From positions 44,443 to 96,188 of the forward strand of contig NZ_JAKZKX010000007.1 of the NCBI RefSeq assembly GCF_022808715.1: DNA of 51,746 bases. The letters are read 5' to 3'. The notes under the pieces were generated by a model. The model was not told the origin of the DNA, ran no database searches, and saw only the letters and a list, made by a program, of their open reading frames with translations. This DNA comes from Fundidesulfovibrio agrisoli (GTDB taxonomy: Bacteria > Desulfobacterota > Desulfovibrionia > Desulfovibrionales > Desulfovibrionaceae). This document shows positions 6,547 to 25,944 of this stretch, piece after piece. Each line of letters opens with the position of its first letter. Positions within the stretch are counted from its first letter, which is position 1. The translations under genes were made by a program, and so were the position numbers.

Positions 6547-7167
6547 ATGAGAAGCGAACAGGAACTCCAGGCCAATCTGGCCGCCTATTGGCGGCGCTTG
6601 AACGCTGCTTGCGGCGTACCCGCGGGCACCCACCCCGACGACCCCAACCCGCCCAGATCTGAACATCGGCAGGCCGCGCCCACGTACCGGGTGAGGCAGG
6701 CTGCATTCATGCCCGAGAACGAGCACATCCACGCCTCGTTGATGAGCGACCCCGAAGTGCTCGCAATCCTCCAGGACCACTGGAACGACACGTTCATCCC
6801 CAACGATCTAGGCCCCGCTCCAGCCGACCCGGCCGCCCAGCTCCGCTGGTACACCCTGCGCGACCTCAACGCCTTCCACCACAGCCGCCACCGCGCCGAC
6901 TTCGAGGACGCCCGCAAGCACCGCACCAGAAAGCGCGTGGACATGCTCTTCGCCAGGCTGGCTCACCACGACCCGCTGCACGCCGGAACCATGCAGGTGA
7001 TGAATCATGTGCTGAAGACCCTCCCGGAGTCCGCCAGGAAGGCGGTGACGAAGGTGTTCTCGCGCTGCCCGCTGGAAACGCTGGAGTTCTACAAGGAACT
7101 CCGTGGCGCGGCGGGGAAGGTCATGGGCGCGAATCACCACCGCCGCCGCAGGCGCGATGGCCGCTAG
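6547..7167 (+). CDS. hypothetical protein, 206 aa, accessory region
   Basis: I do not recognise this protein. It is 206 aa, soluble, and rich in His and Arg: the tail ends HHRRRRRRDGR. Visible segments are an acidic N-terminal helix (MRSEQELQANLAAYWRRL), a Pro-rich linker with HPDDPNPP, a MSDPEVLAILQDHWNDTF stretch, and a helical C-terminal half. No signal peptide or membrane span is seen. The ATG at 6547 has AAAGGA 6 nt upstream, inside a potential hairpin. Codon use is still GC-rich but less extreme than in the flanking genes. It precedes a second unknown gene by 63 nt, and the pair plus the tiny genes downstream looks like acquired DNA. A phage or mobile-element origin is a guess only. Confidence 0.75.
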   Translation: MRSEQELQANLAAYWRRLNAACGVPAGTHPDDPNPPRSEHRQAAPTYRVRQAAFMPENEHIHASLMSDPEVLAILQDHWNDTFIPNDLGPAPADPAAQLRWYTLRDLNAFHHSRHRADFEDARKHRTRKRVDMLFARLAHHDPLHAGTMQVMNHVLKTLPESARKAVTKVFSRCPLETLEFYKELRGAAGKVMGANHHRRRRRDGR

Positions 7168-7188
7168 TCAGGCTGAAACGGAATAACC

Positions 7189-7214
7189 GCGCCGGAGGGG
7201 CTGACCTCCGGCGC
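7189..7214 (+). promoter_or_regulatory. intercistronic hairpin
   Basis: GCGCCGGAGG (7189-7198) pairs perfectly with CCTCCGGCGC (7205-7214) around a 6-nt loop. It ends 4 nt before the AAGGAG Shine-Dalgarno of the next gene. It may stabilise or partly terminate the transcript between the two accessory genes. It has no T-run. Confidence 0.5.
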
Positions 7215-7230
7215 TATCAAGGAGATGACG

Positions 7231-7878
7231 ATGGATTCCAATGACGCGATCGCCGAAAGCTACCTGCGCCAGCAGGAACTTGATGGCGACCCCTACGGCG
7301 AGAAGTTCAATGGGGGGTTGGACCTGATCCCCGTTTCCAACATGTCCGGCCCGGACTCGAACCGGACGGATTTCGACACCGCCCATCCCGTCGGAGGACG
7401 GGATGACGATCTCGAACCCGGAAAGCTGAACAAGGTCGTCACCACGAACCCAGTCCCGGACGCGGACGGAGTTTACCGGCAGAAAATCGACTGGGGACAG
7501 CTCCATGCCGATGAAGACCCGCTGTTCAAGCAAATCGCAGGCGACAGCAATGAATTCGTCGGCGGCATCCCCAAGCAGGTCTGGGATGGTTTGAGCCAGG
7601 AGCAGAAGGACCGGTTCGTCCGTGGGACAGAGGAGGACCGGAGGGCTGCAGCATATGCAGGTGCAGTTACAGGCGGAGTCGCAGGCTTTACTGCTGCTCT
7701 TCCTGCCATGTCCTCTGGCCCTATAGGCTGGGGTCTGGCAACGTCAGGCTTGTCGACTTTAGGAGGTGTTGTGGGCTATAACACAGGCTATGACCTGCTG
7801 GATAAGGCTACTCCGCCGCAACCGTCGCCGCGCGACAGGCTCCGCGAGCAATTCGAACGAGCAAAGGACCACGATTAA
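7231..7878 (+). CDS. hypothetical protein, 215 aa, with Gly/Ala-rich hydrophobic C-terminal region
   Basis: I do not recognise this protein. The first ~130 residues are polar and Asp-rich (PDSNRTDFDTAHPVGG, KIDWGQLHADEDPLFKQI). Residues about 145-200 form a long Gly/Ala/Ser-rich hydrophobic stretch with small-residue spacing (AGAVTGGVAGFTAALPAM, GWGLATSGLSTLGGVVGY), which could be a membrane-inserting hairpin. The tail is charged. The ATG at 7231 was chosen because AAGGAG at 7219-7224 abuts the earlier ATG at 7225 with no spacing. A strong terminator follows at 7884-7908. A polar N-terminus with a glycine-zipper-like C-terminus is compatible with a pore-forming or membrane-active protein, but there is no direct evidence. 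Confidence 0.75.
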   Translation: MDSNDAIAESYLRQQELDGDPYGEKFNGGLDLIPVSNMSGPDSNRTDFDTAHPVGGRDDDLEPGKLNKVVTTNPVPDADGVYRQKIDWGQLHADEDPLFKQIAGDSNEFVGGIPKQVWDGLSQEQKDRFVRGTEEDRRAAAYAGAVTGGVAGFTAALPAMSSGPIGWGLATSGLSTLGGVVGYNTGYDLLDKATPPQPSPRDRLREQFERAKDHD

Positions 7879-7883
7879 GTAAT

Positions 7884-7908
7884 AGCCCCTGCGCGAGCAG
7901 GGGCTTTA
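7884..7908 (+). terminator. Rho-independent terminator
   Basis: AGCCCCTGC (7884-7892), GCGA tetraloop, GCAGGGGCT (7897-7905), then TTTACTTT. This is a 9-bp GC-rich stem with a U-rich tail, 6 nt after the stop of the 215-aa gene. It separates that gene from the tiny ORFs downstream. Confidence 0.85.
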
Positions 7909-7969
7909 CTTTACCAGATATATGTATAAATATTACACCGAACAAATACGCTTGAACCAGGTGAGGCCA

Positions 7970-8122
7970 ATGAACAAATTCATCGGTAAATTCATTAATA
8001 ACATCAGAGGGAGCAAACCTTTTCCTATTTGGAAAATGCTTATCCTTGTCATTATCTACTCACTCGCCCTAGCTTATTTTTTCGGCGATTATATCAGAAC
8101 GATCAGTTGGCTCAGATGGTAG
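7970..8122 (+). CDS. small single-span membrane protein A (50 aa)
   Basis: The 50-aa product starts MNKFIGKFINNIRG (basic N-terminus), has one hydrophobic segment around residues 23-39 (MLILVIIYSLALAYFFG) and ends in YIRTISWLRW. The start at 7970 has an AGGTGAGG Shine-Dalgarno; an upstream in-frame ATG at 7922 lacks one. The DNA is AT-rich compared with flanking genes. Its last codons plus 10 nt are repeated as a degenerate copy 254 nt downstream (8347-8386), where VRMMSSFRW and a stop can still be read. This suggests that a second copy of this gene once existed. The function is unknown. Size and topology resemble type I toxins, holins or small regulatory membrane proteins. Confidence 0.6.
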   Translation: MNKFIGKFINNIRGSKPFPIWKMLILVIIYSLALAYFFGDYIRTISWLRW

Positions 8123-8132
8123 CCGGGCGGCC
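8093..8132 (+). repeat. tandem duplication marker, copy 1
   Basis: The 40-nt block covering the 3' end of small gene A and the bases after it matches 8347-8386 at 32 of 40 positions without gaps. With the paralogous genes at 8183 and 8438 offset by 255 nt, it defines a tandem duplication of roughly 255 bp. Confidence 0.75.
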
Positions 8133-8182
8133 TGCCCAATGTGCATATCCAACGCCAACGTGAACAGACCAAAGGCATTCAC

Positions 8183-8317
8183 ATGAAAAGGTTGTCCTTC
8201 TCCGAATCACACCGCAAATTCGTCCATTGGGCGCTGGAAAAACCCTACCGCCTCCTCATCCTAAGTGTCGCCATTGCGCTTCTCATAACCAGCATCAGGG
8301 AGTGCAGAAGGGGCTGA
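8183..8317 (+). CDS. small single-span membrane protein B (44 aa), paralogue of the 8438 gene
   Basis: The ATG at 8183, with AAAGG 7 nt upstream, opens a 44-aa frame. The core RKFVHWALEKPYRLLILSVA is shared with the gene at 8438 (RKFTHWLVEKPYRLILFGVA); about 23 of 43 aligned residues are identical. Codons differ mainly at synonymous positions in the invariant EKPYRL block, which argues that both are translated and under selection. A basic amphipathic N-terminal helix is followed by one membrane span (about residues 24-37) and a charged tail RECRRG. No known family is recognised. It lies in tandem with the paralogue at a 255-nt period. Confidence 0.6.
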   Translation: MKRLSFSESHRKFVHWALEKPYRLLILSVAIALLITSIRECRRG

Positions 8318-8346
8318 CATTGCGACTTGGCGGTTAGTCCGGTGCT

Positions 8347-8386
8347 GTCAGAATGATGAGTTCGTTCAGATGGTAGTCAGGCAGCC
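8347..8386 (+). repeat. tandem duplication marker, copy 2 (remnant of small gene A 3' end)
   Basis: This block matches 8093-8132 at 32 of 40 positions. In the frame matching gene A it reads VRMMSSFRW followed by TAG, compared with IRTISWLRW and TAG in gene A. It therefore looks like the surviving 3' end of a second, decayed copy. No start codon or intact reading frame remains between 8318 and 8347. Confidence 0.7.
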
Positions 8387-8437
8387 GGTTCGCTTCTGAA
8401 TGGCCAGCGGTAGAAGCAATAGCCCAAAGGCACTCAT

Positions 8438-8575
8438 GTGAACAAAGTTTCCTTTTTTCAATCCCTCAGAAAATTCACACATTGGCTGGTCGAAAAGCCA
8501 TACCGTCTCATCCTCTTCGGAGTCGCAACGGCGATTCTTCAGTCCATCATCCGGGAGTTCAGATCAGGCGGTTGA
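8438..8575 (+). CDS. small single-span membrane protein C (45 aa), paralogue of the 8183 gene
   Basis: A GTG at 8438 lies exactly where the ATG of the 8183 gene aligns, after the same CCAAAGGCAN leader, and gives a 45-aa protein with RKFTHWLVEKPYRL, a single span (about residues 24-37) and the tail IREFRSGG. The overlapping ATG at 8436 is followed at once by TGA, so GTG is the only workable start in this frame. Conservation with the 8183 product through synonymous changes supports coding. The function is unknown. It could be a toxin-like or holin-like peptide, or part of a two-peptide membrane system. Confidence 0.55.
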   Translation: MNKVSFFQSLRKFTHWLVEKPYRLILFGVATAILQSIIREFRSGG

Positions 8576-8644
8576 CGCATCGGCTGGCACGACGCGCAAC
8601 CCCTGACACCATCACGCAGCGGCGGCCTCGGCCCCGCTCCCCGC

Positions 8645-8869
8645 TCATCCCCTCTCGTCCCCCCGCTCCTCCGGGCAGCGCGCCCCGCGCAGCTCCCACC
8701 GCTCGCAGGAGAAATCCGGCCCAACCCGGGTGTAGTTCCTGCCGCGCTCCGAGTACGGCCATTGCATCCCGATGTTCAGGCAACGTCCCATGCTGGCCTT
8801 GATGTCCATGAAGAAGAAATACTTGCAGGTGCAGCAGAGTTGGCGCGGGGCTGGCGAGGGCTGGCTCAT
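8645..8869 (-). CDS. small cysteine-containing protein (74 aa)
   Basis: The frame encodes MSQPSPAPRQLCCTCKYFFF, then GRCLNIG and DFSCERWE. Four cysteines arranged CCxC...C...C around aromatic residues suggest a small metal-binding or disulfide fold, similar in style to short hypothetical proteins with a CKYF motif. The ATG at 8869 is preferred over a GTG three codons upstream; the Shine-Dalgarno is weak for both. It is convergent with the tiny plus-strand genes and separated from the TPR gene by a strong hairpin (8907-8936), so it probably has its own transcript. I cannot assign a function. Confidence 0.6.
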   Translation of the reverse strand: MSQPSPAPRQLCCTCKYFFFMDIKASMGRCLNIGMQWPYSERGRNYTRVGPDFSCERWELRGARCPEERGDERG

Positions 8870-8906
8870 GGCGATCACCCGTTGGCGTGGCCGTTTGGGG
8901 AAATGA

Positions 8907-8936
8907 CAAGGGCCGCCGGTCGCCCGGCGGCCCTTG
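8907..8936 (-). terminator. hairpin downstream of the O-acylation operon
   Basis: CAAGGGCCGCCGG (8907-8919) and CCGGCGGCCCTTG (8924-8936) form a perfect 13-bp stem with a 4-nt loop, 13 nt after the TPR-gene stop. Read on the minus strand it is followed by TCATTTCC, only mildly T-rich. It is the likely transcript end of the 14208-8949 operon. Confidence 0.65.
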
Positions 8937-8948
8937 CCTGAATCGAGT

Positions 8949-9683
8949 CTATTTGGAGAGGTCCTTCACCGCGTCGGCCACCTTGCGCCCGTCGGGCATC
9001 TTGGCCCCGGGGTTGATGGCCACCAGCTGGTTCCAGGCCTCGGCCGCTCCGGCCTTGTCCCCCAGGTCGTAGAGCTTCACCACGCCGATGTTCATGCGGG
9101 CGATCTCATGGTTGTTCTGCAGCGAGACGGCCTTCTGGAAGGCCTTCAGGGCCTCCTGGGGTTTCTTTATGGCGCGCAGCATCACGCCCATGTCCGTCCA
9201 GACGTCGGGCTGCCCGGCGTCCAGGGCAAGGGCCTTCTCGTAGGCGGCCACGGAGCGCTCGGGCAGGTCCGCGTCGAAGTAGAGGTTGCCCAGATCCACC
9301 CAGACCTTGACGTCGTTGGGGGTCTTCGCGGCCTTGTCCTCCAGGGTCTTGGCCTGGGCCATCAGGTTGGTCATCATGGGGTTCTGGCCGCCGCCCATCA
9401 TGGCGTTCATGCCGCCCTGAGGCATCCCCTGAGGAGGCATGCCCTGCGGGGGCATTCCGGCCTGGGGCTGCTGGCCGTGCTCCTGCCCGGCGCCCCTTCC
9501 GGCGACGGTCTCCTGGTTGAAGACGATCACCGCGCCCTGCCAGCCCATGAAAACCCCCGCCAGGAGCATGATCGCGCAGAGCAGCACGGCGCTCTGCTTG
9601 CGCACCATGCCGGCGGGCACTTGGCCCGGTGCGGATTTGGCGGAGGGATTGGAGGCCGGGGTCTTCTGCTTGGCTTTGGACAT
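8949..9683 (-). CDS. membrane-anchored TPR protein
   Basis: The 244-aa product has a short basic N-terminus, one transmembrane segment (residues about 33-54, SAVLLCAIMLLAGVFMGW), a Met/Gly/Pro/Gln-rich linker built from GMPPQ-type repeats, and a C-terminal TPR domain with at least two clear repeats (VWVDLGNLYFDADLPERSVA and VWTDMGVMLRAIKKPQEAL). The architecture resembles CcmI/NrfG-type or envelope-assembly scaffolds. The ATG at 9683 follows AGGGAGA; a start seven codons earlier is less likely. It is last in the MBOAT/SGNH operon, 79 nt after the secreted-protein gene, so it probably scaffolds or recruits the envelope acylation enzymes. That role is inferred. Confidence 0.85.
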   Translation of the reverse strand: MSKAKQKTPASNPSAKSAPGQVPAGMVRKQSAVLLCAIMLLAGVFMGWQGAVIVFNQETVAGRGAGQEHGQQPQAGMPPQGMPPQGMPQGGMNAMMGGGQNPMMTNLMAQAKTLEDKAAKTPNDVKVWVDLGNLYFDADLPERSVAAYEKALALDAGQPDVWTDMGVMLRAIKKPQEALKAFQKAVSLQNNHEIARMNIGVVKLYDLGDKAGAAEAWNQLVAINPGAKMPDGRKVADAVKDLSK

Positions 9684-9762
9684 GGATTCTCCCTGATGGG
9701 TCATGCCGCGCGAGGCGCGGCGGTGCGTTACGATGCCTTCGACGTCCTTGTTGCCGGGTGTG

Positions 9763-10626
9763 CTACTGCGGCCCGGCGGAGCCCGCGCCCTTGCCGTACT
9801 TTGGGTTCAGCGCGGCCTTGCTCAGGAAGTAGTCCAGCTTGATCTTGCGGTTCTTGAGGATGCGGTCGAAGTAGTAGTTGGGCGGCTCCTTGAGCACCAG
9901 CCTGTCCTTGGCGCCGTCCAGGAAGACGGCCTCCAGGGCCGGGTCGGGGCAGTCGGCGGTGCCGTCGGGGTGCAGGGTGATCTGCGCCACGAAGGTGATG
10001 GACTTGAAGGTGTCCTGCACGTTCGGGGATTTGAGCCGTGCGATGAAGCGGCTGTCCGTCTGGCTGACGCTGGAGAGGTCGATGTCCGCCTTGAACTCGG
10101 CCTTGCTGGCGCTGAGCACCTGCCAGCTCCTGGAGGTGAAGAAGGCGTAGGCGTCCAGGGCCTGGCCCAGCGGCGCGGACTTGTCGAAGCGCAGCTTGGC
10201 GGCCTTGAAGGGGGCGGCGTCGCCTGATTGCTGCTCCGGCGCGGAGGCCGCAGGGGCCTGGGCCGCGACCTGAGTCGTGGACGGGGCCTGGGCCGAGAGC
10301 CCGCGCACGTCCATCTTCTCCAGAGGGAGCGTGAACATGGGCGGCTGGTCGTTGTGGATGAGCAGGTGCCCGGATATCTCCACGGTGAGCTTGCGCTCCG
10401 CGGCCTGGTCCAGGGCGGCGCGCCCGGCCGGGCCGAAGAACTCCCTGTCGCCGATGACGATCATCTTGCCGTTGTCGAGCATGAGCCGGTAGACGGTGAC
10501 CTGGTCCTCCGTCACGGTTGCCACCTTGCCCGTGCGGGTGACCTGCATCTCCTTGACCACCCTGGCTTGCACGGGCGCGGCCAGGAGCAGCGCCGCCAGA
10601 GCCGCCAATACGCATGTGCGCGTCAT
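9763..10626 (-). CDS. secreted protein of unknown function in O-acylation operon
   Basis: A Sec signal peptide is evident (MTRTCVLAALAALLLAAPVQA, cleavage near residue 22). The 287-aa mature region begins VVKEMQVTRTGKVATVTEDQ, includes a small domain about residues 30-110 with IVIGDREFFGPAGRAAL, an Ala/Pro/Gln-rich linker about 112-136, and a second domain about 140-275 with FFTSRSWQVLSASKAEFKAD and PNYYFDRILKNRKIKLDYFL. I do not recognise the fold. Position between the SGNH lipoprotein (22 nt upstream) and the TPR gene implies a periplasmic accessory role in polymer modification or export. Confidence 0.8.
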   Translation of the reverse strand: MTRTCVLAALAALLLAAPVQARVVKEMQVTRTGKVATVTEDQVTVYRLMLDNGKMIVIGDREFFGPAGRAALDQAAERKLTVEISGHLLIHNDQPPMFTLPLEKMDVRGLSAQAPSTTQVAAQAPAASAPEQQSGDAAPFKAAKLRFDKSAPLGQALDAYAFFTSRSWQVLSASKAEFKADIDLSSVSQTDSRFIARLKSPNVQDTFKSITFVAQITLHPDGTADCPDPALEAVFLDGAKDRLVLKEPPNYYFDRILKNRKIKLDYFLSKAALNPKYGKGAGSAGPQ

Positions 10627-10648
10627 GTCATGAATCCTTTTGTTGGGG

Positions 10649-11527
10649 TCAGGCGCCGGACTTGCCCTGGGAGGCCTGATCCTGTTTGGGCTGGCTGGGC
10701 GGGTCCCAGTAGATCCGGTTCTCCAGAACGGCCATGCAGAACCCGGCCAGGGCCTGGGCCCCTGCCGTGGTCATGTGGATGCCGTCGCGGGCGCGCAGGG
10801 TGGCTCCGTTCTCCACATCGGGCTTGGAGAAGGCGAACCCGCCGTCCTGGGAGGAGAACAGGCTCCAGGTGTCCACGTAGTAGCAGTCCTTCTGGGAGGT
10901 GACGGTCCTGCGCACCAGGGCGTTGATGTGGCGCAGGTCGCGGTTGAGGTCGCTGTCGGCGGTCACGGGCGAGCCCATCCAGAACACCGTGACGTCCGGG
11001 TTCTGGGCGCGGCAGATCTCGATGATGCGGCGCACGCGGGCGGCGTAGCCCTTCTCCCACTCCGGGGAGCGGTAGGTCACCTGGGAGCCGTCGGGGTTGC
11101 GCAGGTGCTTGTTGTCGTTGGTTCCGAGCATCACCACCACGGCGTCGGGCCGGTAGCGGCGGGCCATATCCTCCATGTGGCGATCCCAGTCGAAGAAGTC
11201 GGGCCGGGCCAGGCCGGATGAAACCTTGCCCAGGCGCGCGAAGCGCAAGCCCGGTTTTTCGGCCACCATCTTCTCCAGTTCGGAGCCGAGGCTGATGGAT
11301 ATGGAGTCGCCCACGACGACGAGCGACTGGATGCGCCGCTTGGGCGCCTGCGGATCGAAAAGGCCCTTGGGACCGAGCTTGGGCCGGTCCAGGGCGGCCA
11401 GTGCCTTGGATTTGCTGTCGCTCCCGGCGTGGGCGGAGCTTTCGCCGCCACCCAGCCCGGCGCAGCCGGTGACGGCCAGCGCCATGAGCAACACGCACAT
11501 TTTCAGAATGAGCTGAATAAAGCGCAT
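10649..11527 (-). CDS. SGNH/GDSL hydrolase-family lipoprotein
   Basis: The 292-aa protein begins with a lipoprotein signal (lipobox AVTGC, Cys22). The SGNH core has block I VVVGDSISIS with nucleophile Ser76, block III GTNDN near residue 145, and the block V pair Asp248/His251 in RDGIHMT. It resembles DUF459-type SGNH proteins that work with MBOAT acyltransferases, such as the AlgJ/AlgX and PatB/DltD logic: transfer or removal of O-acyl groups on extracytoplasmic polymers. The motif KVSSGLARPDFFDWDRHM has a counterpart in the upstream gene (KVASGLQNPQYYDWEQAL), so the two are paralogues. Lipidation suggests the periplasmic face of a membrane. Confidence 0.88.
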   Translation of the reverse strand: MRFIQLILKMCVLLMALAVTGCAGLGGGESSAHAGSDSKSKALAALDRPKLGPKGLFDPQAPKRRIQSLVVVGDSISISLGSELEKMVAEKPGLRFARLGKVSSGLARPDFFDWDRHMEDMARRYRPDAVVVMLGTNDNKHLRNPDGSQVTYRSPEWEKGYAARVRRIIEICRAQNPDVTVFWMGSPVTADSDLNRDLRHINALVRRTVTSQKDCYYVDTWSLFSSQDGGFAFSKPDVENGATLRARDGIHMTTAGAQALAGFCMAVLENRIYWDPPSQPKQDQASQGKSGA

Positions 11528-11669
11528 GGTCCCCGTTAGGACGCAACAGGGGCCTCCGTCAAGCCGGAAGAAAGGCTCGCCACACTCGCAACACCTCGCC
11601 GGTGTTCACTGAACATCCCAAAGCGGAGGCCGATCCCGCCGAGCGGGCATGACCCTGGAGCGCTTGGTT

Positions 11670-12785
11670 TCAGGGCGTCGCGGTGGCGGGCGCCGGGTGG
11701 GCGGCGGCCACTTCCTTGCTGTCCTTGGGTTTGAGCTCGATCATGGAGCCTACGTCCGTCAGGAAAGCCTTGGCGATGATGTCGCCCCCGGCGGGCGAGA
11801 AGTGGATCTTGTCGCCCTCGCGCACCTTCACCCGCTTGCCGGAGCCGTCCACCATGTGCTGGGCGTAATTGCCCCCCGCGTCGGCCAGCAGGCTCCAGGT
11901 ATCAAGGAAGCGGGAGTGGGCCGTGCCCGCGCAGGCCTGCGCGACGATGGCGTTGAGGGCGTGGCTCTTGGCGGAGAGGTCCTGGTCGCCCATGACGGGC
12001 AGGCCGATCCAGAAGCTGGCGACGCCCTTCTCCTCCAGGACGGAGAGGAAGCGGCCCAGCCTGGTTTCGTAGACGCCGCGCCGCTTGTCCGCCACGGCGC
12101 AGGGCTCGGGGGCCTGGGGGTCCAGGGTCAGGTACTTGGCGTCGTTGGCGCCCATCATCACCACCACGAGGCCCGGGTTGTACTCCTTGAGGAACTGCCG
12201 CAGGGCCTGCTCCCAATCGTAGTACTGGGGGTTCTGCAGGCCGCTGGCCACCTTGCCCTTGGGGATCATGGTCAGGCCGTCGTAGCGCTTGAAGATGCGC
12301 TCCAGGCTGCCCGACAGGGCGATGGCCAGGGAGTCGCCCACCACCAGCACGTCGCAGGGCAGGTGCAGCCGGGGCGGGGCGGCCTTGGGCTTGGCCTGGA
12401 GTGCCGGGGCGGTCGCCGTGGCCAGCGCGGCCTGCTCGGCCTGCCCCTGGGCCTGCGCGGGCGGGCAGGCCAGGGCGGCCTGAACGCCGCCGGAGGCCTC
12501 GGGGGCCTGTCCGTCCAGCTCGGCCAGCACGGGCTGCTCGCAGCGGTAGGTGTTCTTGTAGGTGCCGCCGAACAAGGGCGCGGTGGCGCAGTCCAACTCA
12601 AGCCCGGCGGCCGCCAGGCCCGTGCCCTGGTAGAGGGCGTCGACATTCAGGACGAGTTCGTGCGCCCAGCCGGGCAGGCCCTGCTCGAAGCGGGAGCCGA
12701 GCCAGCTCTCCACGCGGTCGAACTGCACGAGCACGGCCACGGCCAGGGCCAGGGCGTATATTCCGATGATGCGTCCACCCTTCAT
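11670..12785 (-). CDS. membrane-anchored SGNH-family protein, probable O-acyltransferase partner of MBOAT
   Basis: A single N-terminal anchor (residues about 5-21) precedes a periplasmic region with a Pro/Ala/Gln-rich linker (about 95-138) and an SGNH domain: VVGDSLAIALSG with Ser152, MMGANDAKY, and the Asp325/His328 pair in GDKIHFSPAG. At 371 aa it fits the DUF459-like family. It sits 19 nt after the MBOAT gene, the usual pairing in which MBOAT moves the acyl group across the membrane and the SGNH protein passes it to the polymer. Four cysteines in the N-terminal half of the periplasmic region (66, 82, 107, 144) could form disulfides. The polymer and acyl group are not known from the sequence. 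Confidence 0.88.
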   Translation of the reverse strand: MKGGRIIGIYALALAVAVLVQFDRVESWLGSRFEQGLPGWAHELVLNVDALYQGTGLAAAGLELDCATAPLFGGTYKNTYRCEQPVLAELDGQAPEASGGVQAALACPPAQAQGQAEQAALATATAPALQAKPKAAPPRLHLPCDVLVVGDSLAIALSGSLERIFKRYDGLTMIPKGKVASGLQNPQYYDWEQALRQFLKEYNPGLVVVMMGANDAKYLTLDPQAPEPCAVADKRRGVYETRLGRFLSVLEEKGVASFWIGLPVMGDQDLSAKSHALNAIVAQACAGTAHSRFLDTWSLLADAGGNYAQHMVDGSGKRVKVREGDKIHFSPAGGDIIAKAFLTDVGSMIELKPKDSKEVAAAHPAPATATP

Positions 12786-19692: not shown

Positions 19693-19752
19693 AACCGCCG
19701 GGGCTGGCCACCGCCGGCCCCATCCCTCCCCCCTCCGCAAAGGATGCAGGGC

Positions 19753-20967
19753 ATGTCCGCAGATTCACCAGACGCTCCCGGTCAGCCCGCCGTCAACCCG
19801 GCCCGTTTCAAGGTGCTCTCCACGGCCTGCCTGGCGCACATCGTCCAGGACGGCCTCACGGACATGCTCTACGTGTTCTTCCCGGTCTGGCAGCAGCTCT
19901 TCGCCCTGAGCTTCTCCGAGGTGGGACTGCTCAAGACGCTGTTCTCCGGCACGCTGGCGGCCTTACAGATTCCGGCCGGGGCGCTGGCCGCGCGCCTGGG
20001 CGTGCGCACCACCCTGGCGGGCGGCACTGTGCTCACCAGCCTGCTGCTCTTCTGCACCAGCTTCGCCGCCACGCCGCTCGCGCTCTGGGCCCTGCTGATC
20101 CTGGGCGGGGCGGGGGCCAGCGCCCAGCACCCCGTGGGGGCCTCGGCCATCGCCCAGGCCTACACCGGCAAGGCATCCCGCAACGCGCTCAGCGCCTACA
20201 ACTTCACCGGCGACCTGGGCAAACTGCTCTTTCCGGCCGTGGCCGCGCTGCTCATAGCGAGCTGGGGCTGGCCCGCGGCCATGCGCGGCATATCGGGCGG
20301 GGCCGCGCTGCTGGGCGCATTCATGTTCCTAGTGATGCGCGGCACCGGTTCCGGCCCCGATTCTAGTGGCGCGATTCAGGCCAGACAGCCCGCCGCCGCC
20401 GACCGCGCCCGGAATGGGCTGGGCCTGCCCTTCTGGTCCATGGCCGTGATCGGCATCCTGGACAGCGCCACGCGCATGGGGTTTCTGACCTTTCTGCCCT
20501 TCGTGCTGCGCGACAAGGGCGCGGACATGCCCACCCTGGGCCTGGCCCTGGGGCTGATCTTCGCGGGCGGAGCGGCCGGGAAGCTGCTCTGCGGCATGGT
20601 TGCCTCGCGCGTCGGCATCCTGCGCTCGGTCATCATCACCGAGGCGGCCACCGCGCTGATGATCTACCTGGAGACCGCCTCCCCGCTCTGGCTGGCCCTG
20701 GGCGTGTGCCCGCTCTTGGGCGTGGTGCTCAACGGAACGTCCTCCATCCTCTACGGCAGCGTACCGGAGCTGGTGGAGCAGGAGGCGCGCGGCCGGGCCT
20801 TCGCCTGCTTCTATACAGGGACCATCGGGGCCGGGGCCGTTGCGCCCCTGATCTACGGGGCGCTGAGCGACATGATCGGGGTGGAGCTTTCCGTGAAGCT
20901 GGTGGCGGCGATGGTCATGCTGGCCGTGCCGCTGACGCTGCCGCTGAGGGGGAAGATGCGGGGGTGA
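19753..20967 (+). CDS. major facilitator superfamily transporter (fosmidomycin-resistance-like)
   Basis: A 404-aa protein with about 12 hydrophobic spans. The first span region HIVQDGLTDMLYVFFPVW and GASAQHPVGASAIAQ resemble the Fsr-like MFS subgroup. IPAGALAARLGVRTT corresponds to the MFS motif-A loop. It is expected to be an inner-membrane exporter with unknown substrate. ATG at 19753 is favoured because AAAGG lies 9 nt upstream; the ATG at 19744 is too close. It ends at a strong bidirectional terminator. Confidence 0.88.
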   Translation: MSADSPDAPGQPAVNPARFKVLSTACLAHIVQDGLTDMLYVFFPVWQQLFALSFSEVGLLKTLFSGTLAALQIPAGALAARLGVRTTLAGGTVLTSLLLFCTSFAATPLALWALLILGGAGASAQHPVGASAIAQAYTGKASRNALSAYNFTGDLGKLLFPAVAALLIASWGWPAAMRGISGGAALLGAFMFLVMRGTGSGPDSSGAIQARQPAAADRARNGLGLPFWSMAVIGILDSATRMGFLTFLPFVLRDKGADMPTLGLALGLIFAGGAAGKLLCGMVASRVGILRSVIITEAATALMIYLETASPLWLALGVCPLLGVVLNGTSSILYGSVPELVEQEARGRAFACFYTGTIGAGAVAPLIYGALSDMIGVELSVKLVAAMVMLAVPLTLPLRGKMRG

Positions 20968-20991: not shown

Positions 20992-21032
20992 AAAAGCGGG
21001 ACACCCGCCCAGGCGGGCGTCCCGCTTTTTAT
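20992..21032. terminator. bidirectional Rho-independent terminator
   Basis: A stem of about 15 bp with one mismatch, AGCGGGACACCCGCC against GGCGGGCGTCCCGCT (20995-21026), has TTTTT on its right and TAAAA on its left. It can end the MFS transcript (plus) and the GHKL-nuclease transcript (minus), which converge here. Confidence 0.88.
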
Positions 21033-21102: not shown

Positions 21103-23106
21103 TTATATTCCAAGCTTCTCAAAGAATATTTGATTACGCATTTTAGCATCTCTCAGAACTTTGTCCCAACTGACAACCTCAATGTAAAGGTTGATGTTTC
21201 CCATCCAATTAAACCACCCCATCCGGTCGGGCATGGGCTTAAAGTCCTTCTCGCGATGTAGCCAAACTTCTACCTTGGGAGTCAGATCACACACCACATA
21301 TCCATAGAACGGCGTATTGTCCGCTACAAGCATCTTACGACCCTCTGGCGTCTTATACCTACCATCACGGATCTCATTCACATATCTGACAATTTGTTGC
21401 ACCGGATCTTCGCGCGAAGATGGGTTTACAAAGTCATCACGTTGCGGCTTTTTGAATTCAAAGATTACGATTGGATTGCTCGCTTCATTGTCACCACGGA
21501 ATAGTACACGCTTGTTATAAACTAAAAGATCTGGGCGATCCGTGTTCGTCCCGTTGAGAGGGATATCTGATGACACCCATTTCGTAAAATTTAAACGCTC
21601 ATCGACAATCCAAAGATTGTGATCTTTAAACGGCGTTGCATCAGAGTCGCCTTTGCGCGGAAAGATTATATCGTGTACAACGCCTTCAGAAGAATATGCA
21701 CCGGACTCGTCCGTTTCCAGACTCTTGCCAAAGATATCGAGTATAGCACGTCGCATCGCGATGTAATGAATCAAGTCGTTCTTACTTGTGCCAGAAACCC
21801 TTTCGACGATCTCTGTCACTCGCTCATGCGTTTTCTCGAAGTTCTTCTCAGCTAGCAGCCTTGCGACATCTTTACGGATTGCAACCTCCTGCCAAAACTT
21901 TTCCTTCTGAAGACGCACTTCAATATCTTCTTTTGAAGCATTATACGGCATACTACTCAAGTCAACACTCTCTAAAAGTGCTTTGTGCCAAGGCGCTTCT
22001 TCATCTACATAAGACTGTACACGTTCCTTCTTGCGCTGCTGTCGCAAAGTGATATCCTCGCCCACCGCCTTTCGTGCAATCAATGCGGCGCACTGTTCTA
22101 TCTGGCTCTGCGCAATGCCATAGACGAGATCTCTTTCCATCTGAAACTCGAACCCGCCACGTTCCAAAGAGACATGCCGATCTAGGTAAGCTCCGAACAC
22201 ATAAGCTCTGACGATGTAGTTCCGATCACGGTCGTTTTCACTAGCTCCACCTCTCTCAACAAACTCGTCTTCAAACTCTGGAATGTATTTGTGAATCAAC
22301 GAACCAGATACTTCCCGTTTGTGCGCAACCAAGCTGACCTTACTTTTCTGGTTGCGCGGAGAAAACAGTTTAAAGACGCGGACAGAAAATACTTCGTCAG
22401 ATTCATGCGCTTTAAGAGTAAATTCCTTGCCCTCTATACCGATCTCATAAATGACGGCAGACAACTGGTTGATAACGAAATCATTGAGGTGAATCTCGTC
22501 ACTGCCATCCTGTTCTGCAAGAACAATATCAGGGCAAACATAGTCCTGCGTGATAAAGTATGGGAGAAGATGCTCCACAAGGATACGGGCAATTGTTGGT
22601 AGCTTTTTGTCGAACCCACGCCCGCCCTTAAGGCCGACAAGGGATACTGTCGATCCGGTGTTGATCTCCTTGGACGGGCCAATCTTCTCGCGAACGATGA
22701 TATCGTGCTCCTTGCCCATTGAGAAACTACGGAACTTGAACACGTCCCCATCGCGATAGACGCTCTTGACATGCACGTCCTCAAAATACTTGAGACTGAT
22801 AAAGCGGCCAAACCCTTTAGCGCCTTCCGCAATCTTAAGATCTGTGTATAAAGTATCGAAGGACTTGCGGTGAGCTTCGTTGAAGCCCACGCCATTATCC
22901 ACAATGTCGAAGCCCACGATCTCCGGAAGGCTACCGTCATACTCGACTTGGCGGCTACGCTGTACGTGCACGATCACCTTGCCATCATTTCTTCCGGTTT
23001 CGTCGATGGCCTGAATACCATTTACAATCATCTCGATGACGGGACTGTAGGCGGTCGTATTAGCGCGAATATTTTCAACTGCCCGCTTGATATTGACATT
23101 ACTCAT
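21103..23106 (-). CDS. GHKL ATPase fused to PD-(D/E)xK nuclease-like domain, candidate defence protein
   Basis: The 667-aa protein has an N-terminal GHKL (HSP90/MORC-type) ATP-binding domain: N-box Glu25-xxx-Asn29 in IEMIVNGIQAID, G1 box DNGVGF (70-75) and G2-like GAKGFGRF (95-102). A long middle region (about 180-480) with Lys/Glu-rich helices around 355-440 follows. The C-terminus carries a nuclease-like signature: PDLLVY (Asp526), IFEFKKP (Glu550 and Lys552) and a QxxxY motif (Gln571, Tyr575), as in RecB-family PD-(D/E)xK enzymes. The gene is markedly AT-richer than all neighbours and stands alone between terminators, so it looks acquired. ATG at 23106 is preferred over TTG two codons earlier. 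Function in DNA defence or repair is inferred. Confidence 0.85.
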   Translation of the reverse strand: MSNVNIKRAVENIRANTTAYSPVIEMIVNGIQAIDETGRNDGKVIVHVQRSRQVEYDGSLPEIVGFDIVDNGVGFNEAHRKSFDTLYTDLKIAEGAKGFGRFISLKYFEDVHVKSVYRDGDVFKFRSFSMGKEHDIIVREKIGPSKEINTGSTVSLVGLKGGRGFDKKLPTIARILVEHLLPYFITQDYVCPDIVLAEQDGSDEIHLNDFVINQLSAVIYEIGIEGKEFTLKAHESDEVFSVRVFKLFSPRNQKSKVSLVAHKREVSGSLIHKYIPEFEDEFVERGGASENDRDRNYIVRAYVFGAYLDRHVSLERGGFEFQMERDLVYGIAQSQIEQCAALIARKAVGEDITLRQQRKKERVQSYVDEEAPWHKALLESVDLSSMPYNASKEDIEVRLQKEKFWQEVAIRKDVARLLAEKNFEKTHERVTEIVERVSGTSKNDLIHYIAMRRAILDIFGKSLETDESGAYSSEGVVHDIIFPRKGDSDATPFKDHNLWIVDERLNFTKWVSSDIPLNGTNTDRPDLLVYNKRVLFRGDNEASNPIVIFEFKKPQRDDFVNPSSREDPVQQIVRYVNEIRDGRYKTPEGRKMLVADNTPFYGYVVCDLTPKVEVWLHREKDFKPMPDRMGWFNWMGNINLYIEVVSWDKVLRDAKMRNQIFFEKLGI

Positions 23107-23451
23107 GATCAAACACCCCGCATGTCCCCTAACTTACCGGGATTCTCTACTGACCTGACATGCTACAAGCTGCATGGTCCAGCATTGCCGACAACACTTC
23201 TCCAACGATATTCTATGATTAAAAAAATGGAAAGGACTGGTTTGTCGGTTTTTCGACCCCCCACCACCAGTCCGTAATGGAAAAAGCTCTAGCGTTTCCA
23301 TCCCCGCCAGAACTAACGCCATTATCTATTTATTCCCCAGGCTCACGAAAACCAGCGCGGTTACAAATCCTAAAGCGCCTAGCCCGCTCACGGGGGACAT
23401 GAAGGGGAAGGAAAGCGCTGGGTTAGGCCCCGCGCTTTCCTGTATCTCCTC
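23107..23451. other. 345-nt intergenic region upstream of the GHKL-nuclease gene
   Basis: No coding frame is convincing here. The stretch is AT-rich in its left two thirds and contains a dyad GGACTGGT (23234-23241)/ACCAGTCC (23266-23273) with a 24-nt interval, and short repeats of ATGGAAA. A TAGAAT hexamer on the minus strand near 23210 could be a -10 box, but no -35 is seen at proper spacing. The right end holds the terminator of the Lon-like gene at 23408-23440. Confidence 0.6.
23408..23440 (-). terminator. probable terminator of Lon-like protease gene
   Basis: AGGAAAGCGC (23408-23417) and GCGCTTTCCT (23431-23440) make a perfect 10-bp stem with a 13-nt loop. Read on the minus strand it lies 11 nt after the stop and is followed by TCCCCTTCAT. 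The pyrimidine-rich tail is weak. Confidence 0.65.
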
Positions 23452-25944
23452 TTACTTATCCTTCTTAGGCTCAGCCTTCTTACTCTTGTCCTTCTTGTCC
23501 TTCTCCCCTTCCTGCGCGAAATCCCTCAGCCCTTCGGCCAGTTGCCTCAGCCGGGCGTCGGCCAGGGCGTTCACGCTGCCCTCGGGGTATTTGCCGTCCT
23601 TGCCGCGTTCCCCGGCGGGAACGCCGGTGAGCACCTCCACGCCTTCGTCAATGCTGGCCACGGCCCAGATGTGGAACTGGCCCTCCCGCACGGCCTCGAT
23701 CACCTCCTCGCGCAGCATGAGGTCCTTCAGGTTGGCTTTGGGGATCATCACGCCCTGCATGCCGGTGAAGCCGCGATCCTTGCAGCAGAGGAAGAAGCCT
23801 TCGATCTTCTCATTGACGCCGCCGATGGGTTGCACGCGCCCCATCTGGTTCACGGAGCCGGTCACAGCCACATCCTGCCGCAGGGGCACGCCCGAGAGGC
23901 TGGAGAGCAGCGCGTAGAGCTCCGTGGAGGAGGCCGAGTCGCCGTCCACGCCGGAGTAGGCCTGCTCGAAGGCGATGCTGGCCGTGAGCGAGAGGGGCCT
24001 GTCCTGCGCGAACCTGCGGCGCAGGTAGCCCGCCAGGATGAGCATGCCCTTGCTGTGGATGGGGCCGGAGAGGTCGGCCTCGCGCTCGATGTTGATGATG
24101 CCCTCGCGGCCCATGGCCGTGGTCGCCGTGATGCGCGAGGGCATCCCGAAGGCGTGGCCGCCCATGCTGTACACGGCCAGGCCGTTGACCTGGCCCACGG
24201 CCGCGCCGTCCACGTCCACGAAGAGGCTGCCACGGGCGATCATCTCGCGCAGGATGTCCTGTATGCGGCTCAGGCGGCCGATGCGCGCGGCGAGGGCCTC
24301 GCGGGCGTGCTCCTCCTGCACGGTGTCGGACCCGGCGCGCTTGGCGTAGAGGTCGGCCTCGCAGAGCAGGTCGGTGTGCAGGGGGAAGGCCGTGGAGAGC
24401 TTCTCAACGCGCCCGGCCATGCGCACGGCGTGCTCCACCACCACGGCCACGGCCCCGGCCGTGAAGGGGCGCAGCTTGTGCTCGGCCGCCTCCCCGGCGA
24501 TGAACCGGGCCATCTGCGTGACGGCGGTCCCGGTTTTGTCCATGGTGCGGGAGAAGTCCGCCCGGACCTTGAAGATCTTGGGCAGGTCCTGGTCGTAGTA
24601 GCGCAGCAGCTGGTAGAGCCGCTCGTCCCCGAGCACCACCACCTTCACCTCCATGTCGATGGGCTCGGGCTTGAGCCCCGTGCCGGAGATGAAGTAGAAC
24701 GGGTCGTAGGTCTGTATCTCGATGCTCTCCGTCTTGAGGGAACGTTTGAGCGTCTGCCAGACGCCCGGCTCCATGATGGCGTCCATGAGGTTGAGCACCA
24801 GGTAGCCGCCGTTGGCCTTGACGAACGCCCCGGCTGTGATCTTGGAGAAGTCCGTCTGCCATCCGCCGTAGGGGCCCACCACGCGGTCCACCCCGCCGAA
24901 GAGGTTGCGGTAGGTGGGGTAGGATTCGATGACCACGGGCGGCCCGGCCTGCTCGGCGTTGTCCACCAGGAGGTTGATGTCGTAGGGGTGCAGGACCGCC
25001 TCGGGGGACGGGGCGGAGAAGGGCATCCCGGGCATCATGCCCTGGGGCTTGGCCCCGATGGTCTTGATCTCCTCCAGGTTGTCCACCATGTGCTCCACCA
25101 TGGCCTCCAGGTGGGCGCGCACCTTGGGGTCCTGGTGGGCTTCGCGCAGGGGGCCCTGGAGGTCGGTGGCCATGGTGCGGAACATGATCTTGTCCACATC
25201 CTCCAGCTTGCGGTCCACCTCCTTTTGCAGGTCGCGCACCTCCTGGACGATGTGGTCCACATCCTCCTTGACCTCGGCCCGCTTGGCCCGCAGCCGCTCG
25301 AACTCGTCCTTGGGGAAGCGGCCGTTGGCCACCATGGCCTCCAGGTCGATGATGCGCTTGGGCTCGCCGTCCACCACGGGCAGCACGTCCGGCCGGGTGT
25401 ATGGCCCCACCTCCATGCGCACCATGGCCAGGCCGGTGTTTTTGACCTTCTCCTCCACGGCCTTGTAGAACTCCATGACCTTCTTTTCGTGGAGCTCGAT
25501 GATCTCGTTCTTGCGGGCGATGTACTCCTCGCTCTCGAAGAGCTGGGGGATCTCCTTTTTCAGGCGCTCCAGGAACTCGTGCACGTCCTTCTTGAACACC
25601 GAGCCCAGCCCGGCCTTGAAGCGCAGCAGCACCGGGGCCTCGGGGCGCTTGAAGTTGTTGACGTAGCAAAGGTCGTCGGGGATGCGGTCGGCCTTGGACC
25701 TCTCCTGGAGCAGCTTTTTGACCGCGGAAAGCCGCCCGTGCCCGGGGTCGCCCGTGACGAACACGTTGTAGCCCTTACGCAGCATGTCCATGCCGAAGCC
25801 CAGTGCTTCCAGGCCCCTCTCCTGCCCGATGACGGCGTCCAGGGGGGTGAGCTGCGCGGTGGTCTCGAAAGCGAGGGAAGCCGGGTCGAGCCTCCAGCGA
25901 AGGCTTTCCGGGGGTACTTCGAAATATGGTGAGGTCGCGGTCAT
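23452..25944 (-). CDS. Lon-like AAA+ ATP-dependent protease (S16 family)
   Basis: The 830-aa protein has a degenerate Walker A (VTGDPGHGRLSA, about 64-75), a long helical insertion about residues 190-290 typical of this Lon-like group, an AAA+ module, and a C-terminal S16 protease domain. The catalytic dyad is Ser670 in DGDSASS and Lys713 in GGVNEKIEGF, 43 residues apart as in E. coli Lon (679/722). It lacks the Lon N-terminal substrate domain. The tail is a Lys/Asp/Glu-rich stretch. Walker A has Arg where the conserved Lys would be expected, so ATP use may be altered. It is 67 nt downstream of hsp20, fitting a protein-quality-control pair. Confidence 0.93.
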   Translation of the reverse strand: MTATSPYFEVPPESLRWRLDPASLAFETTAQLTPLDAVIGQERGLEALGFGMDMLRKGYNVFVTGDPGHGRLSAVKKLLQERSKADRIPDDLCYVNNFKRPEAPVLLRFKAGLGSVFKKDVHEFLERLKKEIPQLFESEEYIARKNEIIELHEKKVMEFYKAVEEKVKNTGLAMVRMEVGPYTRPDVLPVVDGEPKRIIDLEAMVANGRFPKDEFERLRAKRAEVKEDVDHIVQEVRDLQKEVDRKLEDVDKIMFRTMATDLQGPLREAHQDPKVRAHLEAMVEHMVDNLEEIKTIGAKPQGMMPGMPFSAPSPEAVLHPYDINLLVDNAEQAGPPVVIESYPTYRNLFGGVDRVVGPYGGWQTDFSKITAGAFVKANGGYLVLNLMDAIMEPGVWQTLKRSLKTESIEIQTYDPFYFISGTGLKPEPIDMEVKVVVLGDERLYQLLRYYDQDLPKIFKVRADFSRTMDKTGTAVTQMARFIAGEAAEHKLRPFTAGAVAVVVEHAVRMAGRVEKLSTAFPLHTDLLCEADLYAKRAGSDTVQEEHAREALAARIGRLSRIQDILREMIARGSLFVDVDGAAVGQVNGLAVYSMGGHAFGMPSRITATTAMGREGIINIEREADLSGPIHSKGMLILAGYLRRRFAQDRPLSLTASIAFEQAYSGVDGDSASSTELYALLSSLSGVPLRQDVAVTGSVNQMGRVQPIGGVNEKIEGFFLCCKDRGFTGMQGVMIPKANLKDLMLREEVIEAVREGQFHIWAVASIDEGVEVLTGVPAGERGKDGKYPEGSVNALADARLRQLAEGLRDFAQEGEKDKKDKSKKAEPKKDK

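Follow-up and report, generated by a model that had tools for sequence, protein, structure and literature searches.

What does a lone AT-rich gene between a lon-like protease gene and a convergent MFS-type gene do, and how did it arrive there? We addressed this question for a 667-residue open reading frame within 51,746 nucleotides of the Fundidesulfovibrio agrisoli genome (the window). The frame begins at an ATG at 23106 and occupies 21103–23106 of the minus strand, with the same start as in the four closest plasmid relatives (the longest start option gives 21103–23112), and its genome carries a single copy. The lon-like gene (23452–25944) lies upstream on the same strand and the MFS-type gene (19744–20967) downstream on the opposite strand. 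The labels lon-like, MFS and rnhA are read off translations rather than taken from a family search, whereas a GDSL lipase and an ABC transporter farther along were identified with Pfam. No defence gene was found among ten window proteins scanned with Pfam. We judge, with a probability of about 0.8, that the gene was acquired horizontally and encodes an ATP-gated nuclease of the paraMORC3 kind that acts alone against phages (or plasmids).

The protein comprises, in order, a GHKL ATPase domain, a transducer, a helical stalk and a C-terminal nuclease domain (Table 1). The original prediction had recognised a full GHKL N-terminus from its N-box, DNGVGF and GAKGFGRF motifs, all of which are present where it placed them. 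The alignments A2 (51 rows, the window protein and 50 relatives) and A3 (52 rows) are hand-picked, and both include the window protein. The ATP-binding residues E25, N29, D70, G72, G74, G95, G98, G100 and R101 are found in all 51 sequences of A2, and R316, D526 and K552 are likewise without variation. The Pfam family HATPase_c matches residues 24–124 of the window protein with an E value of 0.0024, under its curated cut-off, and is matched in 45 of the 51 sequences at E ≤ 0.1. An AlphaFold2 model of the whole protein (mean pLDDT 84.9, pTM 0.72) places an S5-like transducer C-terminal to the GHKL domain, and a Foldseek comparison with the PDB, a check that had been proposed beforehand, bears out the predicted fold of this part: ATPase and transducer match TopoVI-B, Hsp90, GyrB and SMCHD1 with E values down to 2e-11, at TM scores of about 0.3 of the whole protein. 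MutL also has the GHKL and transducer fold. To our knowledge, none of the MutL, TopoVI-B, Hsp90 or SMCHD1 modules carries the C-terminal nuclease of the window protein. A family profile, A1, weakly matches the Mlh1 transducer region (PDB 4p7a, E 0.014), a match not repeated with the larger profile A2.

Table 1. Positions in the window of the gene, its domains and conserved residues, and the flanking non-coding features.
Feature	Position	Strand	Basis
CDS, GHKL ATPase + transducer + helical stalk + PD-(D/E)xK nuclease (paraMORC3 kind)	21103..23106	minus	ORF; full-length relative 80% identical
GHKL ATPase domain, residues about 20-185	22552..23049	minus	Pfam HATPase_c; Foldseek TopoVI-B/Hsp90/GyrB, E to 2e-11
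N-box E25xxxN29	23020..23034	minus	E25, N29 in 51/51 sequences, window included
D70-N-G-V-G74 ATP-binding motif	22885..22899	minus	D70, G72, G74 in 51/51
G95-A-K-G-F-G-R101 ATP lid motif	22804..22824	minus	G95, G98, G100, R101 in 51/51
Transducer (S5-like) domain, residues about 193-330	22117..22530	minus	R316 in 51/51; Foldseek
R316, candidate arginine finger	22159-22161	minus	invariant in 51/51
Helical stalk, residues 333-462	21721..22110	minus	AlphaFold2 model secondary structure
PD-(D/E)xK nuclease domain, residues 474-667	21106..21687	minus	conserved residues; profile-profile; weak Foldseek
D526	21529-21531	minus	51/51
E550	21457-21459	minus	50/51
K552	21451-21453	minus	51/51
Q571	21394-21396	minus	50/51
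Hairpin, candidate bidirectional terminator between gene and convergent MFS-type gene	20992..21029	both	folding energy
Non-coding spacer, lon-like stop to GHKL gene start	23107..23451	minus	ORF map

The C-terminal domain had been predicted to be a PD-(D/E)xK nuclease from the motifs PDLLVY, EFKK and QxxxY, which are indeed present in that order. The residues E474, E550, Q571 and Y575 each vary once among the 51 sequences, and E474 (50/51) would be the first E of an E-D-ExK signature completed by D526, E550 and K552. The best Pfam nuclease match is HSDR_N (residues 512–581, E 0.0068, under its curated cut-off), which is matched in 13 of the 51 sequences at E ≤ 0.1. Profile–profile comparison with hhalign gave 93.4% to 14 HsdR-N sequences, aligned over 72 columns, and 92.1% to 13 Shedu cores over 144 columns reaching the final strand and helix; 30 column shuffles each for HsdR-N and Shedu gave at most 2.5%. 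Comparison with four Shedu sequences only gave 52.8%, and single HsdR and lon sequences 0.4% and 0.7%. Because the profile scores lie far above the shuffles, the PD-(D/E)xK fold is well supported. The equal scores suggest a nuclease of either Shedu or HsdR type.

A separate AlphaFold model of residues 425–667 has a pLDDT of 83.5, and in both models confidence within the nuclease is lowest from about residue 511 to 540, the stretch that holds D526. Foldseek pointed in the predicted direction for this part too, although weakly: the top ten matches are McrBC, FokI and BspD6I entries, which we take to be PD-(D/E)xK enzymes, at TM scores of 0.25–0.45 by query length and a best E value of 0.0037, with none reaching 0.001. 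No Shedu-titled entry occurs among the best 50 of the 231 matches. The RecB-like label originally given to this domain stands as regards the PD-(D/E)xK class and can be refined as regards RecB: no RecB-type family is found among the Pfam matches of the window protein at E ≤ 1, and the matches obtained are to HsdR-N and Shedu in sequence and, weakly, to McrBC, FokI and BspD6I in structure, although RecB-family matches are on record for this domain (PMC2292703).

The domain can be set against both of its nearest nuclease types. The core layout is like that of Shedu SduA proper (DUF4263/SduA_C), with the D, the ExK, the Q helix and the final strand with its D-x-L-helix all aligning, but the window protein differs by its GHKL N-terminus and by failing the SduA_C profile. 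This Pfam family is not among the 16 that match any of the 51 A2 sequences at E ≤ 0.1; it matches one of 17 family sequences at E 0.15, and nothing in the window's genome at E ≤ 0.01. With the N-terminal nuclease of HsdR the window protein shares the HSDR_N match but not the SF2 translocase. Two Pfam SduA_C proteins of 710–729 residues from the same taxonomic order (L148 and L149) were considered as bridges between the GHKL family and Shedu and rejected, the sole blastp match to the family being a chance 12-residue piece in L148.

The original prediction assigned the gene to no named system. The caution was right, but the family does have a name. The study of Iyer, Abhiman and Aravind 2008 (PMC2292703) defines paraMORC3 proteins as GHKL and S5 domains followed by a C-terminal restriction-fold domain with E-D-ExK, reports RecB-family matches for that domain, and describes a nuclease-bearing subset that stands alone without conserved neighbourhoods. 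The domain order, the E-D-ExK residues, the sporadic and mobile spread and the stand-alone position all recur in the window gene and, judged from sequence and model, the protein is of the paraMORC3 kind by the 2008 definition.

That GHKL ATPases combined with nucleases recur in anti-phage systems, as had been proposed, agrees with Adams et al. 2025 (PMC12137116). There VcSduA, a Vibrio protein built in the same way and reported to work as a single gene, stops phages. It protects robustly at every phage dose tried, and E27A (the GHKL glutamate) and K557A (the nuclease lysine) each abolish this protection; the authors treat proteins of this kind as equivalent to paraMORC3 and Shedu type I-D. As a single gene with a GHKL glutamate near 25–27, a middle domain and a nuclease lysine near 552–557, VcSduA resembles the window protein, a likeness that rests on architecture, residue numbering and the words of the paper rather than on letter-by-letter alignment. 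Two Vibrionaceae relatives (L009 and L020) carry the corresponding glutamate and lysine as E27 and K556. They are 30% identical to the window protein, so target and trigger may differ.

Existing resources do not recognise the gene. PADLOC returned nothing for the window protein at E ≤ 1, and filing it there was rejected; over 17 family sequences three models each match one member, with a best E of 0.0028. No curated NCBIfam cut-off was passed, and searches of PDB sequences and viral records with the single window protein, and of PHROGs, gave nothing or weak matches. The gene is thus invisible to PADLOC and to every curated Pfam and NCBIfam cut-off, yet a protein of the same architecture has already been tested.

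Transferred cargo had been proposed on the grounds of a sharp difference in composition and of bracketing by a terminator and a non-coding spacer. The gene is indeed AT-rich (GC 0.467) and its GC3 of 0.510 is the lowest of 32 window ORFs, some of which, at 0.64–0.73, may be antisense miscalls; the three nearest genes have values of 0.912–0.955. However, a bias towards AT relative to the flanking DNA is also seen in 79 of 80 relatives (mean difference −0.076), so AT-richness is partly a family trait, which weakens composition alone as proof of recent transfer. A second, milder AT-rich stretch (GC 0.57–0.58) lies at 7001–9000 of the window; at E ≤ 0.001 Pfam gave no match for three small ORFs called within or next to it. 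The spacer is non-coding as predicted, and a consensus scan found no sigma-70-like promoter in it. The terminator is borne out by its folding: the hairpin has a 17-bp stem on the minus strand, folding energies of −34.0 and −31.2 kcal/mol (z −6.8 on the minus and −6.6 on the plus strand) and short T runs at its ends on both strands, and transcription from either direction could end there, although a consensus scan of the region gave no excess of terminator-like sites (3 against a shuffle mean of 4.3).

Better evidence of transfer comes from comparison of genomes. In G399, of the same genus, about 300 bp separate the matching parts of rnhA and lon, and searches of that genome found neither the GHKL gene nor the MFS-type gene; the rnhA–lon gap without the GHKL gene is an empty site. 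In 11 loci with a DNA match over the gene, similarity begins and ends no more than a few bases from the ORF boundaries. The idea of single-gene cargo has stronger evidence here than in composition, and the window gene was probably acquired horizontally. G397 is closer to the window's genome than G399 (its lon protein is 97% identical) and also yielded neither gene; its contigs break at the rnhA–lon spot, with ends that overlap by 156 bp with one mismatch, which fits an empty site and could also be a repeat. By eye, the gap in G399 (L107:7411–7710) seems to contain a separate hairpin terminator, which resembles the one at 20992–21029 of the window without being identical to it. The MFS-type gene has a host-like GC3 of 0.91 though not found in G399 and G397, and genes 56–58% identical to it are present in G395, G398 and G405; the rnhA–lon gap may be a repeated insertion site.

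The distribution of the gene is patchy. Only the window's own genome, among 59 searched, has a close copy; three others have copies 27–39% identical in the matched pieces, one split over two frames, and a wider sample of the phylum gave 3 matching genomes of 395, the window's own included. The closest protein, 80% identical, is from Humidesulfovibrio, and relatives 78–79% identical come from Thiomonas and a Spirochaetes bin (a tree of 69 rows was obtained by a quick LG+G4 search). Homologues occur on 58 of 72,556 plasmid records, at 27 IMG/VR loci and on 1 of 50,697 phage records, where the gene adjoins an integrase. This phage copy (vB_RanS_PJN03, L010:2485–4509) is annotated as an N-acetylmuramoyl-L-alanine amidase, apparently a misnomer. 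Loci from Thiomonas (L022) and Eoetvoesiella (L025) have 18.5 kb in common at 99.98% identity, which points to recent movement. Three matched regions (L088:10001–12000, L095:1279–3284 and L086:10001–11996) contain 11, 11 and 1 internal stops in frame, so those copies are broken or frameshifted in their assemblies.

We examined the surroundings of homologues, which the original prediction had suggested surveying for defence genes. Of 16 loci from annotated collections, 14 carry annotation, and in nine of these the product names within 8 kb include an R-M, Abi, SAVED, SIR2, TIR or Shedu gene (L005, L007, L009, L011, L012, L013, L016, L018 and L020). These include type I R-M in Salinivibrio (L009), type I R-M with an annotated Shedu gene just upstream in Vibrio fluvialis (L020), AbiE in Hymenobacter and SAVED in Acinetobacter. 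No gene of those kinds appears by name in L006, L008, L010, L014 and L017, some of which hold PIN, HEPN or VapBC genes. PADLOC gave a mild signal of enrichment: the most frequent of the type I methylase models matched 6 near and 2 far genes and the specificity model 5 and 2, counting matches rather than distinct proteins. The genes compared were drawn at random from 41 loci, 100 out of 151 near and 100 out of 139 far, with ORFs called by a simple script and 25 families among the matches listed (of 396 and 220), and the far genes may still lie in islands.

Coupling to upstream genes was counted over 77 loci, consisting of 73 of 80 genome loci and 4 of 27 viral loci, with seven set aside as fragments (L048, L067, L077, L085, L087, L089 and L096) and two pairs kept whose members match almost or completely over long distances (L022/L025 and L063/L118). 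As the 80 are the best of 555, the counts describe close relatives. A same-direction upstream gene of at least 150 residues overlaps the GHKL start by 4–8 nt in 24 of the 77 and is no more than 16 nt away in 30; seven loci gave no such gene within 1.2 kb. We sorted the 24 overlapping partners into five groups using blastp clusters and Pfam-scanned representatives (1–3 members per group): a GIY-YIG protein (n = 10, L043 type, preceded in L043 by a DEAD/ResIII helicase), an SMC-like AAA_13 ATPase (n = 5, L022 type), type I HsdM/HsdS (n = 4, L023 and L027 type), an Eco57I-type methylase of about 1374 residues (n = 4, L040 type) and a type ISP specificity domain (n = 1, L035). This contrasts with the stand-alone paraMORC3 subset, for which PMC2292703 gives no conserved neighbourhoods. 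Close without overlap are type III Res genes (14 nt in L032, 15 nt in L033, 66 nt in L070) and a NADAR DarT1 antitoxin gene (16 nt, L044). Elsewhere an AraC regulator (L021) or a WYL protein (L065) lies upstream, the upstream proteins of L037 and L100 match no Pfam family, and the upstream region of L122 holds nothing of note.

The partners change between closely similar proteins. The GHKL proteins of L022 (AAA_13 partner) and L023 (HsdMS partner) are 84.9% identical, with a DNA match that coincides exactly with the GHKL ORF from start to stop, and those of L040 (methylase partner) and L043 (GIY-YIG partner) are 84.2% identical; no single partner is therefore needed. We also considered the nuclease as a replacement for HsdR in type I operons and rejected this for L009, L020, L027 and L091, where HSDR_N matches lie, by their coordinates, elsewhere in the locus (the R subunits annotated in L009 and L020, an 852-residue ORF upstream in the L027 operon, and a 794-residue ORF two genes downstream in L091), so that the GHKL gene is an extra there; the contig of L023 starts too near the gene for that locus to count among them.

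How such a protein might work can be proposed from its homologues. As in MutL, TopoVI-B and Hsp90, the GHKL domains of two subunits would close around DNA like a clamp when ATP binds. R316, a putative transducer finger by its invariance and position, and the helical stalk would relay clamp closure to the C-terminal PD-(D/E)xK domains, with the result that ATP gates cutting. The closed clamp would present DNA to two nuclease domains, which would nick or cut it where held. Our best guess for the sensed signal is DNA ends, by analogy with the type I Shedu protein EcSduA, which senses them via an N-terminal clamp according to a 2026 report (PMC12904381). Invading DNA would presumably be sensed in this way in Fundidesulfovibrio agrisoli, and the window copy would defend its host; the phage would be restricted while the host survives, which is how the authors of the VcSduA study read their growth data (PMC12137116).

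Three other accounts were considered. The protein might be an auxiliary R-M subunit dependent on a methylase or helicase, the window copy being stranded and working with unlinked genes or not at all. The overlap with an upstream gene in 24 of 77 relatives, partners that include HsdM/HsdS, the Eco57I-type methylase and, within 14–66 nt, type III Res, and the model of Iyer et al. (PMC2292703) all speak for this, and yet partners switch between proteins 84–85% identical, VcSduA is reported to act as a single gene (PMC12137116), a search of the window's genome for HSDR_N gave no match at E ≤ 1e-10, and the stand-alone window copy keeps its conserved residues. We therefore regard it as unlikely.

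A role in DNA repair, in which a MutL-like ATPase that brings its own nuclease would be recruited to mismatch or end processing, seems to us more doubtful still. The MutL-like domain order, the stand-alone position and the unrepeated A1 match to Mlh1 would suit it, and a mismatch-repair role was suggested for versions outside R-M contexts by Iyer et al. (PMC2292703). A close copy in just 1 of 59 genomes, homologues on plasmid, phage and IMG/VR records, the overlaps seen in relatives with genes of restriction or of other defence types, and the anti-phage action of VcSduA (PMC12137116) argue otherwise. The account to which we give the least credence is that of an inert recent insertion, neither expressed nor selected; it would explain a spacer in which a consensus scan sees no promoter-like site, a single copy and a composition far from that of the neighbours, but sits poorly with an intact ORF that retains its catalytic residues and is 80% identical to the Humidesulfovibrio relative.

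Under the preferred reading of a stand-alone ATP-gated defence nuclease, the gene is an intact, well-preserved and otherwise ordinary example of a family described in 2008, a protein of the same architecture having been tested in 2025; what the present analysis adds is the switching of partners among relatives. We suggest tentatively, with the odds somewhat against it, that the GHKL-nuclease is a partner-independent plug-in effector that moves as one ORF between defence-type partners and stand-alone sites. It would be attached downstream of unrelated defence-type genes, in most cases through an overlap of 4 nt: type I HsdM/HsdS, type ISP, Eco57I-type methylase, helicase with GIY-YIG, SMC-like AAA_13 ATPase and, within 14–66 nt, type III Res. 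If so, any upstream system, or none, would share one nuclease that senses DNA ends or DNA topology under ATP control. Partner-switching makes it possible to ask, in testable form, whether one ATP-gated nuclease module is common to restriction and other defence systems. Among the titles and abstract openings listed in a literature search that leaves out most subscription papers, none presents the GHKL-nuclease as the overlapping last gene of several kinds of defence operon.

Two of the upstream families can be listed by locus. The GIY-YIG (T5orf172/MUG113) family upstream in L043 is found in 11 loci (L043, L054, L055, L057, L058, L061, L069, L071, L074, L075 and L076). In L022, L024, L025, L031 and L099 (near 7061–12157), the gene of an 872-residue SMC-like AAA_13 ATPase runs 4 nt into the GHKL-nuclease gene, and the pair is common to these loci as a block of about 5 kb, making it a candidate two-gene defence system; in L031, integrase-like and DUF1016-like genes, read off translations, lie upstream of it.
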